Assembly (NCBI GenBank): GCA_021817605.1
Contig: JAKAUN010000013.1
Location: 1 to 64,000 of the forward strand
Source: Thermoplasmata archaeon
Lineage (GTDB): Archaea > Thermoplasmatota > Thermoplasmata > Lutacidiplasmatales > UBA184
Length of the DNA stretch: 64,000 bases
Direction of reading: 5' to 3'
Shown: positions 57,241 through 64,000 of the stretch, one piece after another
How positions within the stretch are numbered: position 1 is the first letter of the stretch
How the letters are laid out: the number at the start of each line of letters is the position of its first letter
Made by a program: the position numbers and the translations under genes
Notes under the pieces: model-generated
Databases searched by the model: none
The model's input: the letters and a program-made list of their open reading frames with translations, nothing else
What the model was told of the DNA's origin: nothing

Positions 57241-58272
57241 GTGCGGCACGCTCCTGTCGTCCGGCTTCAGCGCGGGGAGCGCGAGAGGCTGGTGGGCCTC
57301 GCCCGCTCCCCGGCGTCCTCTGCGCGGATCGTCCGACGCGCGCGGACGATCCTCTTGGCGTCCGAGGGGAGCTCGGATCGCGACATCGCCCGAGAGCTCG
57401 CCACGGATCCGGGGACCGTCGCCCTGTGGCGCCGACGCTTCCTCCTCCAACGCGTCCCCGGGCTGGTCCGGGAGGCCCCGCGCGCCGGCCGACCTCCCAC
57501 GACGCCGCCGGCACGCATCCGCGAGATCGTTCGCATGACGCTCGGCCGTCATCCCCCCGGTGGGGGCCCCTGGTCGGCCCGCAGCCTCTCCCGGGCAGCC
57601 GGGGTGAGCAAATCGACCGTCCAGCGGATCTGGAAGGCCCACCAGATCGAGCCGCGTCGGGCCGCCGAGACGCTCCGGCGCAACCCAGGGGCGAAGTTCG
57701 TCGACAAGGTGACGGACCTCGTGGGCCTCTACTTCGACCCTCCGGATCGTGCGATGGCCTTCTCCGTGGACGAGAAGGGCCGCGGGTCGACCCTTTTGCC
57801 CCTCGAACGACGTGCCGTGGAGCGGTTCGCCGAGCACCGGCGGGCCCTCGAGTTCCGTGCCTTCCTCCAGGCGATCGACCGGGAGACGCCGGCGGACCTG
57901 GACGTCCACTTGCTGCTGGAAGGGCGCCTCGCTCCGGCGAGCGCCGAGGTCGAACGGTGGCTCGCCCGCCACCCGCGCTTCTTCCTCCACTTCCTGCCGG
58001 TCGAGCGGGGAGGGCCGAACGTCCTCGACCGCTGGTGGGCCGGCTTCGCGCGTACCCGGCTCCGCGCAGACCAACCGGCCGGGGTCCTGCGTCTCAAGCG
58101 CGCCTTCCGCGATCACTTCGGGAGCCCGGGCTCCGGCGGCCGCCCGTTCGTCTGGACCGCCACCTCCGAGGAGATCCGCGGAGGGCCGGCTCGGGCAGGG
58201 GAGCGACGCACGGACGTCTCCGCCCCGCGAGCTTTTCGGCGTCCCCGGAACGGAGCGTCGTCGACGCCGTAG
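57241..58272 (+). pseudogene. IS630-type transposase relative with lost catalytic residues
   Basis: A 343-residue protein aligned with IS630/ISXO-type transposases: N-terminal helix-turn-helix (SSDRDIARELATDPGTVALWRRRF), a second HTH (WSARSLSRAAGVSKSTVQRIWK), VGLYFDPPDRAMAFSVDEKG with the first acidic residue, ARHPRFFLHF, and PFVWTA near the C-terminus. The segment between LPLER and EFRAFLQ is shorter by about 45 residues than in the family. The second catalytic Asp of LDNYxTH is LLLEGRLAP, and the Glu of NxVExFF is NVLDRWW. The frame is intact, so either decay or domestication to DNA binding is possible. No inverted repeats are evident. Confidence 0.7.
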
Positions 58273-58299: not shown

Positions 58300-61200
58300 T
58301 TACGCAGAACCGCCGCTCTCGGCCCGCGCCGCCCGGGGGGCCGCGTCGGTCTCGAGGGGGCCTTCGAGCCCGCGCAGGAGGCGCTCGCGCTCGGTAGGCG
58401 TCAGGAGGTGGGGGTCGATATGCACCCAGAGCCTGGTCTCCGAGGCCCTAGCCGCCCGGTCGATCTCTCGCAGGAACTCGGCGACCGCAGGGACGCCGTG
58501 GATCTGCGCGAGGTACTCGATCCCCTCCAGGAAGACGGCGCTGACCTGCTCGTCGCGGATCGCCGCGAGGACCCGATGGGTCACGGCGGACAGGTCGCTC
58601 GGGTGGACCGAGAGCTCGCGCCGAAGGTTGGTCAGCCACAGGACGGTCACCGGCCTCGGACCGACGTGGGCTCGCACCCGCTCGGGAGCCTCGCGGACGA
58701 CCGCGAGCCCCCGGTGGCCCGCCGCGGTGGCGTCCAGGAACGGTCCTAGGGCCTCGAGCAGCGAGCTCGACGTGTCAAGCTCCATGCTACGGTGGCTTGG
58801 CGTAAGGGACCGTTTCGGAGGATGTAGCCCGTCGGTCCCGTCTGTCGCGACGGCTTCCCCTTCCGGGGAGCCGGCCGGCGTCGCGGGCTCCCGCGCGAGC
58901 GGTTCGCGCGGAACGGCGGGTCCTGGCCTGGCGAGGCTTGCCGACGGACCGGGGCTGCTACCGTAGAGTGGCCCGGGCGCCACGGCGTCGCGAGCCGGCG
59001 CGACCCCTTCGGGAGGTTCCCGGGGGACTCTGTGGGCATCGGGCCGTGGCACGGCCCTTCCGGCCCTGCGGAAGATCTCCGCGGCGACGGGGCGGCCGAA
59101 CCCGGGCAGCCCCGCGAGGCGCTCGAACTCGGCTGTTTCCACCTGGTCGACCGAGCGGAGGCCCGCCTCCCAGGCGTTCGCGACCTTGCTCGGACCGAGC
59201 ACCGGCCGCTCGAGGCGCTGCGTGAGCCTCTCGGCGAGCGAGCGGATCTCGTCCTCTCGGGCGATGACGGCCTCGTCGGTGAAGTCGATCTCCTCCGGGC
59301 CCGACAGCAACGGCAGAGGGGGAGGCGGGACGCGGGGCGCGCGTCCGCCGCGGCGACGTGCCTTTTCCGCGCGGGAGTGGACCGGGGTCTCGGGAAGGTC
59401 GACGGACCATCGCGCGCCGGTTCGGGTCCGGCCGACGACGCGGTTGGGCACGCGCTCGGGCGGCTCGCCGGTCGCGACCGAAAGCTCGCGCAGTCCGAGG
59501 AGGGCGACGATCTCGTCGCTGCGGGCGTGGAGCTCCGTGGCGAGCGGCTCGGGAGCGTGTACCGCGGCGACCGGACCGTCGGAGGCCGGGGGCTCCCGCG
59601 AGGAGTCATCACGCAGGCGACGGGCGACCCGCCGGACGAGCCAGCGGGCGTCGGTCGAGAGACCGGCTCCCGGCACGGACCGGTGGGGCCCATCCCCCGG
59701 CAGCTCGACGAAGAGCTCACCGAGCGAGCACGGCGTGCGGACCACCCCGACCGGCAGCTCCTCGGCCAGCCGGAGCATCGAGGAGGGTACCGTGTGGGTG
59801 AGCCCCCCGACGACCACCGAGATCCCGCGCAACGGGTCTCCGTCCTCCGGCCCGCGCACAGGCAGCTGCTTGAGGAGGTGCAGCACCTGCGGCGCGATCG
59901 TCGGATAGGCCTTCGTGATCTCGGCCTCGTCCGGGACGACGCGTCGGCGTCGCCCCGGCCAGGGTGCCCTGGGGCTAGCGACCTCGAGACGCCGGAGCCG
60001 GGCGAGGCGCTCGAGGAGGAGGTGGTCGGCACGCAGCCTCTCGCCGACCCCCTCGTCCTCGACGACGACCGCGGCAAAGGGGATCTCGGCCTCGGCGGGA
60101 AGCTGGAGGTCGCGACGGAGGCGCGCGGTCGCCCGAAGGAGCGCCTCCCACTCTTCCCAGCGGAGGACCAGCTCCTCGTCGACCGCGGGCCCTTCCGGGG
60201 AAAGCGGCTCTTCTTCGAAGATGGTCGACGCCTCGGGGCGGAAGATGCGGTAGAGCGCCTCGGCCGTGAACGGTGCCACGGGGGCGAGAAGGGGGCTCAC
60301 GGAGAGCAGGAGCTCGCCCAGGGTCGCTAGGACCGCCCTACGGCCCGGCGCGCCGAGAGGCCCGGCCCGGCGCTCCCGGACGAGCGCCCGGTAGCTTTCG
60401 AGATCCTGGTCGAGGAAGCGCGTCACGGCACGGTAGGCCTCCCCGGGCCGGTACCCCTCGTAGAGCGCGATCGCGTCCCGCGCGGCGCGCGCCCAGCGCG
60501 CGAGGACGGCGCGGTCCTCGATCTCGGGACGGGCTCCGAGGTCGGCGACCCGTTCCGCCACCGCACGGCGCAGCGCCTCGTCGGACTCGGCCGCGACCTC
60601 CCGCCCCAGCGCCACGAGCCGCGCGAGACGTCGCTGCTCCTGGCGCGCGCGCTCCTCGAGGGCCGGGCCGGACGGCTCGCGCGGCCCGCTCCCGACGATC
60701 GCGGCGCGGAGCGCATCGGCCCCCCGCTCGCGCACGAGCTCGGCGAGGTCGACCGGCCCGACCGTCGGCACGACCGTGAGGCCGACCTCGCCGACGGTCT
60801 CCCCGAGCGCGGCCATCGCGACCAGGTGATGCACGAGCGACGGACTCCGCCGCCGGTCGCCGAGGTAGAGACGCACGAGCGCCTCGGGATGGTCCGGGTC
60901 CCGGCCCGCCCAGGCCGCGAGGGCCCCCTCGAACGACGGAAGAAGCCGGCGTCGCACCGGGACGCGGAGCCCGCCGCAGCGGCAGGTCTCGCCTGCGCCC
61001 GGGACGTCCAGCCGGTCGCATCGCCCGCACTCGAGCAGGACGAAGCTTCCCTCGCCGGAGGCGCTCACCGTCTCGCTCACCGGCCACGGCGTGACCTCGA
61101 GCTGGGCGAGGGGCGGCTCGCCGGGAAGGAGACGCGCGTAGCGGTCGGTGAGCTCGGTCGGGAGGCGGGCGAGATCGATCCGCCAGGCCTGGCCGGGAAC

Positions 61201-62319
61201 CCAGACGAGGGTCCGGCCGCAGACCCCGCAGTGCGGCACCCCCCGCAGCACCCGAAGGCGCGCGAGCACGCTCCCTCCCTCGGTGAGGTCGCGGGCGACG
61301 AACTCGTTGGCCGTGGCGAGGTCGAGGCCAGCGTACTTGTGCTGGAGGGCGAGCTCGAAGCCTCCGTGAGGGTTGAGGAGCGGCCAGCCGGCGATCCCGA
61401 GCCGCTCGGCGATCTGGCTGTCGGGGCCGCCGTGCCCGGGCACGAGCGGGATGATCCCGGTGCCGATGTCGCCGACGTCCCGCACCGCCTGGACCGTGCC
61501 GGCGGGCGGCTCGAGCGTCGCGCCCTCGGGGAACTCGTGCCGCAGAGGGTAGAGATAGCGACGGCCGACGAGCTCCCGTCCGCGCAGCTCGCGGACGATC
61601 GAGAACTCAGCGCCCGCGAGCCAAGTGGAGAGGCGGTCGACCGACGAGCGGGAGAGCAGGAGCCGCGCCTTCGACCCGTCCCTGCGATAGTCGGCGACGA
61701 CGTAGCCGAGCTCGGGGTTCACCAGGAGGGCGCTCGTCGCCAGAAGGCGCCAGGGAGCGTCCACCCACGCGACCGCGTCCACGGCCCCGTCGGCACCCGG
61801 TAGCGGGAACCGGACGAGGTAGGTGTCTCCGACCTCCTCCTGGTAGATCGTCCGCTCCGGGCTGCGGGGCGAGGCGCACCCCGGGCAGAGCCGGACCGGC
61901 CCGTCCCGCAGCACCACCACGCCCCGGCGGGCGAGGCGCTCGAGGAGCGCCTGGACCCCGGTAGAGCGGTCGGCGGCGTCCCAGGGGTGGCCCTGGGCTC
62001 CTCCGGTCCAGACCCCGAGCGCAGCGAGGAGATCCGCGAACCCCGGGGCGATGGCGGCGGGGTCGCCTATCGGGCGGAGGGAGCCGACAACGCGTCGCCC
62101 GCGCAGGAGGAGATACCGTGCCTCGACATCGGCCCGGATCGACCGCAGGGCGACCTGCAGGGCAGGGTCGCCGGGGGCGAAGCCCCCGAGCAGCTGGCGG
62201 ACGAGCGGTCCGTCCGGAGGGCCAAGGACGCCGGAGGGCGGCGGCAGGGACCGCTCGGCCCATCTCCGCCGCCCCTCGGCCTCGGCCTCCGAGGTCTCCC
62301 GAGGTGGAAGGGGGCTCAT
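58300..62319 (-). CDS. isoleucyl-tRNA synthetase-like protein lacking HIGH/KMSKS, fused to HhH and DUF835
   Basis: A 1,339-residue protein following class Ia IleRS. Residues 33-170 correspond to the catalytic core (LGPPDGPLV, RRGVVVLRDGPVRLCPGCASP, EVGDTYLVRFPL); 175-400 to the CP1 editing domain (ELVGRRYLYPLRHEFPE, DIGTGIIPLVPGHGGPD, ATANEFVARDL); 500-545 the region that should hold KMSKS; about 600-960 the anticodon-binding and C-terminal parts. No HIGH or KMSKS sequence exists. Cys pairs are at 145/148, 364/367, 431/434, 446/448. Residues 1040-1092 look like helix-hairpin-helix, and 1180-1320 match DUF835 (VLWLTNL, VFLEGIEYLAQIHG, LWVHIDPHLL). It is presumably not a tRNA ligase; a tRNA-binding, editing or signalling role is inferred. 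ATG at 62319 is preceded by a TATA-like GGCTATTCTC about 31 bp away. Confidence 0.8.
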   Translation of the reverse strand: MSPLPPRETSEAEAEGRRRWAERSLPPPSGVLGPPDGPLVRQLLGGFAPGDPALQVALRSIRADVEARYLLLRGRRVVGSLRPIGDPAAIAPGFADLLAALGVWTGGAQGHPWDAADRSTGVQALLERLARRGVVVLRDGPVRLCPGCASPRSPERTIYQEEVGDTYLVRFPLPGADGAVDAVAWVDAPWRLLATSALLVNPELGYVVADYRRDGSKARLLLSRSSVDRLSTWLAGAEFSIVRELRGRELVGRRYLYPLRHEFPEGATLEPPAGTVQAVRDVGDIGTGIIPLVPGHGGPDSQIAERLGIAGWPLLNPHGGFELALQHKYAGLDLATANEFVARDLTEGGSVLARLRVLRGVPHCGVCGRTLVWVPGQAWRIDLARLPTELTDRYARLLPGEPPLAQLEVTPWPVSETVSASGEGSFVLLECGRCDRLDVPGAGETCRCGGLRVPVRRRLLPSFEGALAAWAGRDPDHPEALVRLYLGDRRRSPSLVHHLVAMAALGETVGEVGLTVVPTVGPVDLAELVRERGADALRAAIVGSGPREPSGPALEERARQEQRRLARLVALGREVAAESDEALRRAVAERVADLGARPEIEDRAVLARWARAARDAIALYEGYRPGEAYRAVTRFLDQDLESYRALVRERRAGPLGAPGRRAVLATLGELLLSVSPLLAPVAPFTAEALYRIFRPEASTIFEEEPLSPEGPAVDEELVLRWEEWEALLRATARLRRDLQLPAEAEIPFAAVVVEDEGVGERLRADHLLLERLARLRRLEVASPRAPWPGRRRRVVPDEAEITKAYPTIAPQVLHLLKQLPVRGPEDGDPLRGISVVVGGLTHTVPSSMLRLAEELPVGVVRTPCSLGELFVELPGDGPHRSVPGAGLSTDARWLVRRVARRLRDDSSREPPASDGPVAAVHAPEPLATELHARSDEIVALLGLRELSVATGEPPERVPNRVVGRTRTGARWSVDLPETPVHSRAEKARRRGGRAPRVPPPPLPLLSGPEEIDFTDEAVIAREDEIRSLAERLTQRLERPVLGPSKVANAWEAGLRSVDQVETAEFERLAGLPGFGRPVAAEIFRRAGRAVPRPDAHRVPREPPEGVAPARDAVAPGPLYGSSPGPSASLARPGPAVPREPLAREPATPAGSPEGEAVATDGTDGLHPPKRSLTPSHRSMELDTSSSLLEALGPFLDATAAGHRGLAVVREAPERVRAHVGPRPVTVLWLTNLRRELSVHPSDLSAVTHRVLAAIRDEQVSAVFLEGIEYLAQIHGVPAVAEFLREIDRAARASETRLWVHIDPHLLTPTERERLLRGLEGPLETDAAPRAARAESGGSA

Positions 62320-62573
62320 CCGGAGTTCGACCCACCCCTTGGCCCGAGAATAGCCTCGGGCCCATGAATAAACCCTCCTTGGGCCGGGAACCTCCCCCGG
62401 CCATCTCCCGGCAGACCGAGTGCGCGAGCTTCCCCCGGTCCCCCTCGCTCCGGTGAAGGGCAGGGGCAGATCCTCTCCGAGTTCAGGAGCGACGGATCGT
62501 TGGGCTCCCGATCGAGCGCTTCGAGGCAGCAACGTTTATGCGACCGAGTCCGTCCCGCCGGCGAGGGCGCACG

Positions 62574-62960
62574 ATGGCCTGGACGCAGCAGGAGGTCCGC
62601 GAGCTCAAGGAGGGCCGCTACATGCTCATCGACGAGGAGCCGTGCCGGATCCTCAGCATCCAGACCTCCAAACCGGGGAAACACGGCGAAGCGAAGGCGA
62701 GGATCGACGCGGTGGGCCTCTTCGACGGCTCGAAGCGGAGCGTTGTGTTCCCGGTGAAGCACAAGGTGCAGGTCCCCATCATCGGCAAGCGCCAGGCACA
62801 GATCCTCTCCCTCGGCGCCGCCGAGGTCCAGCTCATGGACCTCGAGAGCTACGAGACGTTCACCCTGCCGGTCGACGCCGAGACGAAGGAGACGCTCACC
62901 CCGGGCGGCGAGGTCCAGTACCTCGACGCGATGGGCAAGCGGCGGATCACCCGCAGCTGA
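62574..62960 (+). CDS. eif5a: translation initiation factor aIF5A
   Basis: The hypusine-containing factor that helps ribosomes through difficult peptide bonds. The 128-residue protein has the N-terminal SH3-like domain with the hypusination loop [12 protein letters not shown], in which Lys of P-G-K-H-G is modified, and a C-terminal OB fold ([21 protein letters not shown]). ATG at 62574 follows TATA-like CGTTTATG at 62533-62540 by about 37 bp, and the in-frame ATG at 62538 is inside that element, so the shorter start is preferred. Confidence 0.96.
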
Positions 62961-63023: not shown

Positions 63024-63129
63024 AGGGGCCGACGCATCGAATCCGTACCCGCTCCTCCCGTGGGCCGCCCTCGGGCACGCGGGCCTAGGTGGGATCGAGA
63101 TCGTGTCGGGTCCGGGAGGCGCGGGGGCC

Positions 63130-64000
63130 ATGCCCTCGTCACGGCTCGGTCGCATCCTCCAGGAGAAGGCCGAGGCCCTGCGCAAGCGCCGCGGAGGCGC
63201 CGAGGCCGCTCTCAAGGAGGTCGAGTCCCGTGCCGCCATGCTCGCCACTCTCGGCGTCGCCCCGCCGGAGCTCACCGAGGGGCTCGCCCAACTGCGCGAG
63301 CTCGCGCATCGCTCGGACTGGGAGCAGCTCGAGACCCACGCCCGCTCGGTGCTCGTCTCGCTCGCCTCGACCGTCCCGACAGCGATCGAGAGCCGGCGCC
63401 AGCGCACCGAGGAGGAGGCCGCGCGCCTCCGCAGCGCCGGCATCCCGGTCCCGCCGACGCTCTTCGAGCAGCTCCGCGAGCTCTCCGGGCCGGTGAGCGA
63501 GGCGTCCTGGACAGAGACGGTCGGCCGTCTCGCCCGCGTCGAGGAGGAGCTTCGCGCGACCCCGTCCACCTATCTCACGGCCTTCCGTGCCAAGGCCCTC
63601 GAGCTCGCGGGCTGGGCCGGCCTTACCGGCGCTCGCCTCGCGGAGTTCGAGAAAGGGCTTCCCAAGGTGCCGGCGGTCCTCGAGAACGCCCGCGTCGCCG
63701 AGGCGCTCGGGCAGATCCGCCGCCAGGTCGAGGAAGGGCTTCCCGAGGCGTCCCGGCGGCGCCAGGCTGCGCGCGAGGTCGCGGAGGCCGCGCGTGCGAC
63801 CGCCCTGGAGCTCTCGCTCCCGACGGCAGACCTGGACGCCGCCTTGGCCGAGGACGGCCAGGCTCCCTTCGAGAGCTGGCCGACGAGCGTCGCGCGCGTC
63901 GAGGAGACGTCGCAGGCGCTCGGCGAGCAGCTGCGCGCGCGCGCGACCCAGGCGATCGCCAGCCTCCAGGGGGCCCTCCAAGGGCTCGGAGAGTTCGGGG
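63130..64000 (+). CDS. coiled-coil protein, 3' end cut by window
   Basis: The plus frame is open from ATG 63130 to the end of the window (290 codons, no stop). The start RLGRILQEKAEALRKRRGG and long Glu/Arg/Leu heptads such as ESRRQRTEEEAARLR and VEEGLPEASRRRQAAREVAEAARA indicate an extended helical protein; there are no catalytic motifs. An earlier GTG at 63103 is in frame. Third-position G/C is high throughout, supporting coding. Family not recognised; it might be a structural or partitioning-type protein. Confidence 0.6.
   Translation, partial: MPSSRLGRILQEKAEALRKRRGGAEAALKEVESRAAMLATLGVAPPELTEGLAQLRELAHRSDWEQLETHARSVLVSLASTVPTAIESRRQRTEEEAARLRSAGIPVPPTLFEQLRELSGPVSEASWTETVGRLARVEEELRATPSTYLTAFRAKALELAGWAGLTGARLAEFEKGLPKVPAVLENARVAEALGQIRRQVEEGLPEASRRRQAAREVAEAARATALELSLPTADLDAALAEDGQAPFESWPTSVARVEETSQALGEQLRARATQAIASLQGALQGLGEFG

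Follow-up and report, generated by a model that had tools for sequence, protein, structure and literature searches.

In GCN2, a HisRS-like domain that is a dead aminoacyl-tRNA synthetase module is joined to a signalling domain and senses uncharged tRNA; the module is of class II, the protein is eukaryotic, and the output is that of a kinase. Dead synthetase paralogues have so far been known singly and mostly from eukaryotes, and we know of no general regulator that has been established for the sensing of tRNA charging in archaea. Second or non-catalytic synthetase copies as such are already known (PMC9437257). In the account of Weitzel et al. 2020 given in PMC9437257, LeuRS-I of Sulfolobaceae is a second copy that cannot charge tRNA and is kept by selection, and that makes leucyl-adenylate and binds tRNA-Leu. 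SbzA, a paralogue of isoleucyl-tRNA synthetase (IleRS; EC 6.1.1.5), is an enzyme that works outside translation (PMC9437257), while in bacteria with IleRS2, encoded by ileS2, two active IleRS types share a genome (PMC4861432, PMC10485003). DUF835 has been described as iKaiC, a KaiC-like fold without a P-loop that occurs with REC and PAS domains in archaeal two-component systems (PMC5847659). Here, a stretch of 64,000 nucleotides from a Thermoplasmata archaeon (contig JAKAUN010000013.1, positions 1 to 64,000; hereafter the window) was analyzed, and we describe a gene in it whose product, termed pseudo-IleRS, follows the archaeal IleRS fold without its catalytic motifs and continues in the same frame into a helix-hairpin-helix (HHH) region and a DUF835 domain.

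Like GCN2, pseudo-IleRS appears to join a dead synthetase module to a signalling domain, tRNA sensing being a proposal in its case, but it is archaeal and of class I. Like LeuRS-I in the account above, it is an additional copy of a class I synthetase in an archaeon; it differs in lacking the whole active site and in having HHH and DUF835 attached. Unlike the enzyme SbzA, it retains no catalytic motif. Two IleRS types per genome, one of them carrying the HYPFE motif, are found here as in the ileS2 systems, but one of the two is a pseudoenzyme, and the P-loop-less KaiC-like domain is attached to a tRNA synthetase rather than to the partners described for iKaiC. Compared with archaeal-type IleRS (TIGR00392), the fold, the editing (CP1) domain, the zinc Cys pairs, the anticodon domain, and the C-terminal domain are shared, whereas HIGH, KMSKS, HGLP, and the editing His are missing. 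No report of a synthetase-DUF835 fusion or of a dead archaeal IleRS was found in the open-access literature, subscription journals lying outside the search. The new parts are the class-wide IleRS-DUF835 fusion and a near one-live-one-dead pattern of IleRS copies.

An earlier reading of the window from its sequence alone had proposed an IleRS-like protein fused to HHH and DUF835 in one uninterrupted frame. In line with this, the frame is open from ATG to stop (Table 1), orthologues start near the same site, and the IleRS-like portion, which makes up the N-terminal two thirds, is followed by HHH and DUF835 in about 44 of the family's genomes. Similarity to IleRS was recovered by profile search (ileS, NCBIfam TIGR00392; 104.6 bits, E 4e-30, below the cut-off of 621.4), and the top PDB sequence match was Thermus thermophilus IleRS (E 1.8e-20). 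Compared with the PDB, an AlphaFold model of residues 2-1093 (predicted local distance difference test [pLDDT], 86.7) matched IleRS structures best (E as low as 8e-44), the nearest being type 2 IleRS in which the tRNA-binding C terminus is resolved and yeast IleRS bound to tRNA-Ile. These matches and the Anticodon_1 score place the IleRS fold, including CP1 and the anticodon-binding domain, in pseudo-IleRS. The DUF835 domain scored 66.4 bits, above the Pfam cut-off of 33.1; its model (pLDDT, 93.9) was closest to FlaH (E 9e-5) and KaiC (E about 1e-3; probability, 1.00), and no P-loop motif was found in its sequence. The HHH region stood in part: in the window copy it missed the Pfam cut-off (PF14520; 18.7 bits versus 27), but it reached 67 bits with a family profile, and relatives exceed the Pfam cut-off.

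Alignment showed how completely the catalytic signatures have been lost. HIGH aligns to A53-L-Q-V56, within GDPALQV; the sequence-only reading was correct that the motif is gone, but the stretch it quoted was misplaced, the true position lying about 15 residues downstream. KMSKS, which it had also reported missing, aligns to T515-V-V-P-T519, and nothing like H.G[HTNS], KMSKS, G[WYF]D.HG, WTTT, or ISR is present in any other part of the sequence either. The HGLP segment is entirely deleted, and the WISRQRYWG and DQTRGWF segments are unrecognisable. In CP1, the editing His is replaced by P291, as had been noted, and the Thr-rich TTT reads V-D-A, in which Asp187 is a new residue conserved in the family. 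Asp300 is kept and corresponds to the editing Asp of Escherichia coli IleRS, which we take to be D342. The four Cys pairs noted earlier (145/148, 364/367, 431/434, and 446/448) are present in the window copy and conserved in the family; they, Asp300, and Trp190 are invariant or almost so among the family's pseudo-IleRS proteins. Because HIGH, KMSKS, HGLP, and the other signatures are lost, aminoacylation by pseudo-IleRS is very unlikely.

A canonical ileS was sought in the same genome, which is 1.75 Mb in 16 contigs and 100% complete, and was found on another contig (G000:C13:30976-33429; 778 bits, with HLGH and KMSKS); its ValRS lies on C16. Pseudo-IleRS is therefore not the housekeeping enzyme, and the alternative that the genome holds no other IleRS is ruled out. 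The loss of all class I signatures and of HGLP, together with this second gene, supports the earlier prediction of a catalytically dead paralogue.

By a search with a profile built from the orthologues of the genus, pseudo-IleRS is present in 44 of 71 genomes and three of seven genera of its family (f1). The loci matched belong to metagenome-assembled genomes of soil Thermoplasmata, including "Candidatus Lutacidiplasma," and on this ground the family is assigned to "Candidatus Lutacidiplasmatales" (PMC9287336). For two pairs of close orthologues, the ratio of nonsynonymous to synonymous substitution (dN/dS) came to about 0.11 and 0.26, with synonymous sites partly saturated. By domain, dN was among the lowest in CP1 and DUF835 and highest in the Pro-rich linker. 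Within the IleRS-like portion, conservation is highest in CP1 (family mean identity, 50%, versus 31-38% for the remaining IleRS-like domains and 60% for CP1 of the housekeeping IleRS), and DUF835 is similarly constrained. Pseudo-IleRS evolves faster than its housekeeping counterpart, with 32-45% identity versus 57-68% for the same genome pairs. By these measures it is strongly selected as a single long protein and not a broken gene. The survey of homologues recovered both the fusion and the motif loss, and the same open fused frame in tens of assemblies rules out a frameshift or assembly artefact.

Across Thermoplasmata, IleRS occurs in two types. Type A is archaeal, has a DMHGLP context, and in most cases carries HHH and DUF835 as fused domains, often with a zinc ribbon as well; type B is eukaryote-like, has WDCHGLP, is unfused, and carries HYPFE in almost all cases. 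Because HYPFE is a mark of eukaryotic and eukaryote-like IleRS2 (PMC4861432), type B is probably IleRS2. A fully supported branch of the tree splits A from B, with the decayed f1 copies forming one group on the A side; the tree is unrooted, its model is simple, and the decayed copies sit on long branches, so that neither their branching order nor the count of independent decays can be read from it with confidence. Nine loci with wrong-strand frames were left out of later alignments. Where type A is the only IleRS, its motifs were intact in all 14 genomes searched; a single-contig genome of 99% completeness (G156) has an intact DUF835-fused IleRS as its only one. Other Thermoplasmata families carry the same IleRS-HHH-DUF835 architecture with an intact catalytic site. 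Since such intact fusions are the only IleRS of other Thermoplasmata, their distribution shows that the HHH-DUF835 fusion predates the loss of catalysis. Sequence comparison shows pseudo-IleRS to be a pseudoenzyme whose ancestor was an archaeal-type IleRS with both domains in place.

In 18 of the 19 genomes read with both types, only one copy keeps both signatures. Type A is decayed and type B intact in nine GTDB families (f1, five genomes; f13, three; and f2, f3, f6, f9, f15, f18, and f25), KMSKS being lost in the decayed copies and often everything else too; in f15 and f25, recognisable type A is limited to about the C-terminal half. The class therewith presents a gradation: intact fused IleRS, then copies in which only KMSKS is missing, and finally copies that have no active site or of which just the C-terminal half remains. 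The pattern is reversed in f5 (G041, G066, and G096; loci L141, L142, and L143), where fused A is intact and unfused B has lost the editing residues and KMSKS, which reads KISRASEN, KMRNVHKN, and AGANGAG. Only one two-copy genome (G065, f20) has recognisable signatures in both copies: its fused IleRS has LSKS, and its unfused copy (L151, C27) has GVHH at the HIGH position, a variant that confers mupirocin hyper-resistance on bacterial IleRS2 with activity almost intact (PMC10485003). An intact partner IleRS accompanies the decayed copy in nearly every genome. A dead copy is present and type B was not found in G093 (genus g1; 94% complete, 90 contigs). Genus g28 was considered as lacking IleRS and rejected, as three of its four genomes carry full type B and only G165 is without any IleRS. 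Both G093 and G165 are fragmented assemblies, and the missing type B in the one and the missing IleRS in the other are probably gaps.

Two further observations concern IleRS-derived proteins. Those at L181 (G051) and L180 (G119) are reduced to the anticodon domain, DUF5915, and HHH or a zinc ribbon, with the catalytic half mostly unrecognisable; the former additionally retains DUF835. An acidic residue stands in the Thr-rich motif of decayed type A in f3, f6, f9, and f18 (TTE, FSE, LKE/LSD, and TAE) and in that of the f1 copies, which read VDA or TDx; these acidic residues are possibly convergent.

Collectively, these findings suggest that an essential translation enzyme has been turned into a tRNA-binding regulator. 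The explanation we favor, with a confidence that falls somewhat short of even, is that pseudo-IleRS is a non-catalytic adaptor or sensor that binds tRNA and acts in translation control, retained from a bifunctional fused IleRS. Judging by the trees and the distribution, the presence of type B in the lineage would have freed the native type A from charging tRNA; the freed copy may then have lost its active site while the gene was kept for the non-catalytic job of the fused enzyme. CP1 (which in live IleRS receives the tRNA 3' end), the zinc clusters, and the anticodon-binding and C-terminal domains would hold a tRNA, most likely tRNA-Ile, and the CP1 pocket would no longer hydrolyse the ester. 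HHH and the flexible, Pro-rich linker could relay binding to DUF835, an inactive-KaiC-like domain that would recruit a partner protein, the output being a protein contact. Such a role would fit the fixed place of the gene next to aIF5A.

Several points weigh against this explanation. The tRNA binding, the CP1 ligand, and the DUF835 partner are predictions, and the dN/dS estimate comes from two pairs. DUF835 was undetected in the decayed copies of f6 and f25, so it is not always needed; unfused type B decays in f5, so decay is independent of DUF835; and no aIF5A neighbour was found around the fused genes of other families. A wider version, in which fused IleRS is bifunctional across Thermoplasmata and one copy becomes a dedicated tRNA-sensing regulator wherever a second IleRS is present, we regard as doubtful. 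If true, such a regulator would be the archaeal, class I counterpart of the HisRS-like sensor of GCN2.

Three other functions are each unlikely. The dead copy might be a partner subunit that hetero-oligomerises with type B IleRS and modulates how active or stable that enzyme is or where it is located; this would fit the near-constant presence of an intact IleRS of the other type in genomes with a decayed copy; however, an intact second IleRS is expected anyway because IleRS is essential. As far as known, IleRS is monomeric, which also counts against a partner role, as does G093, where the absence of type B is probably due to assembly. There is a precedent in the deoxyhypusine synthase of trypanosomatids, where a dead paralogue activates the live one (PMC3663545). 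No more probable is a trans-editing factor, in which CP1 would clear wrong amino acids from tRNA by means of Asp300 and the new Asp187. The conservation of CP1 above the other IleRS-like domains, the invariance of Asp300, the conservation of Asp187, and the acidic residues of f3, f6, f9, and f18 speak for it, but every f1 member lacks the editing His and has an altered Thr triad.

A comparably small chance is given to a nucleic-acid binder untied from tRNA, which would contact DNA or mRNA through HHH, the zinc clusters, and the OB-like parts. Some relatives have two or three HHH copies, and outside these fusions DUF835 is a domain of archaeal signalling proteins (PMC5847659); selection on the anticodon and CP1 domains argues the other way, since these would be superfluous for a mere DNA binder. 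That the gene is functionless and decaying, or an assembly artefact, is extremely improbable: its faster evolution relative to type B and its loss in some lineages are in keeping with decay, but the full-length frame is open in tens of independent assemblies, and the purifying selection, the unvarying Cys pairs, and the constant gene neighbourhood oppose it. Under the favored explanation of a tRNA-binding adaptor or sensor, the system offers a handle on how archaea sense tRNA charging. The decay series within one archaeal class makes a route from an essential enzyme to a non-catalytic protein readable and testable, and automatic annotation will label many of the decayed copies isoleucine--tRNA ligase.

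Table 1. Features of the pseudo-IleRS locus, in window positions
Feature	Position	Strand	Reading or basis
Pseudo-IleRS gene	58300..62319	-	ATG to stop, 1,339 aa; frame, NCBIfam match, orthologue starts
N-terminal half of Rossmann-like catalytic fold, signature motifs lost	61888..62319	-	aa 1-144; alignment and model
HIGH position, reads ALQV	62152..62163	-	aa 53-56; alignment
CP1 (editing) domain with two Cys pairs	61153..61887	-	aa 145-389; family identity
Thr-rich editing motif WTTTPW, reads WVDAPW	61750..61767	-	Asp187 kept across family
Editing loop GTGIVHxAPGHGPxD, reads GTGIIPLVPGHGGPD	61420..61464	-	His lost, Asp300 kept
C-terminal half of catalytic fold, Cys pairs 431/434 and 446/448	60628..61152	-	aa 390-564
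KMSKS position, reads TVVPT	60763..60777	-	aa 515-519; alignment
Anticodon_1 domain (PF08264)	60082..60516	-	aa 602-746; 46.4 bits, cut-off 25.1
IleRS C-terminal domain, DUF5915 type	59401..60015	-	aa 769-973; 126 bits, family profile
Helix-hairpin-helix region	59059..59235	-	aa 1029-1087; Pfam and family profile
Pro-rich linker, fastest-evolving part, length highly variable among orthologues	58783..59058	-	orthologue comparison
DUF835 domain (PF05763), P-loop-less KaiC/FlaH-like fold	58372..58725	-	Pfam and model
aIF5A, conserved divergent neighbour	62538..62960	+	locus comparison
1,498-aa mostly helical protein, start, downstream of aIF5A	63103..64000	+	continues to G000:C3:67596

Pseudo-IleRS is divergent from aIF5A at virtually all f1 loci whose flanks are long enough to show it, in all three genera, and beyond aIF5A lies an apparently mostly helical protein of roughly 1,500 aa. 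The latter (full gene G000:C3:63103-67596) matched no clear Pfam family, and in other families neither it nor aIF5A was seen next to the fused IleRS. Of 47 g1 genomes, 32 carry both the helical protein and pseudo-IleRS, 12 carry neither, and 3 are discordant, which makes 44 in which the two go together; in other genera the helical protein occurs without pseudo-IleRS. The link between the two is weak and suggestive only, because no more than one or two loss events on the tree account for the g1 absences.

Large proteins ending in a DUF5915 domain like the IleRS C terminus were seen at L162:6426-12374, L182:1-5550, L183:1-3216, L184, and L185, and the ones submitted to a Pfam scan contain CARDB domains; the gene for such a protein lies directly upstream of the fused IleRS in G052 and G065. 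In the window, a helix-turn-helix (HTH) protein at 57241-58272 (+), transposase-like by its HTH matches, is convergent with pseudo-IleRS, and its homologues lie downstream of two orthologues (L059 and L060).

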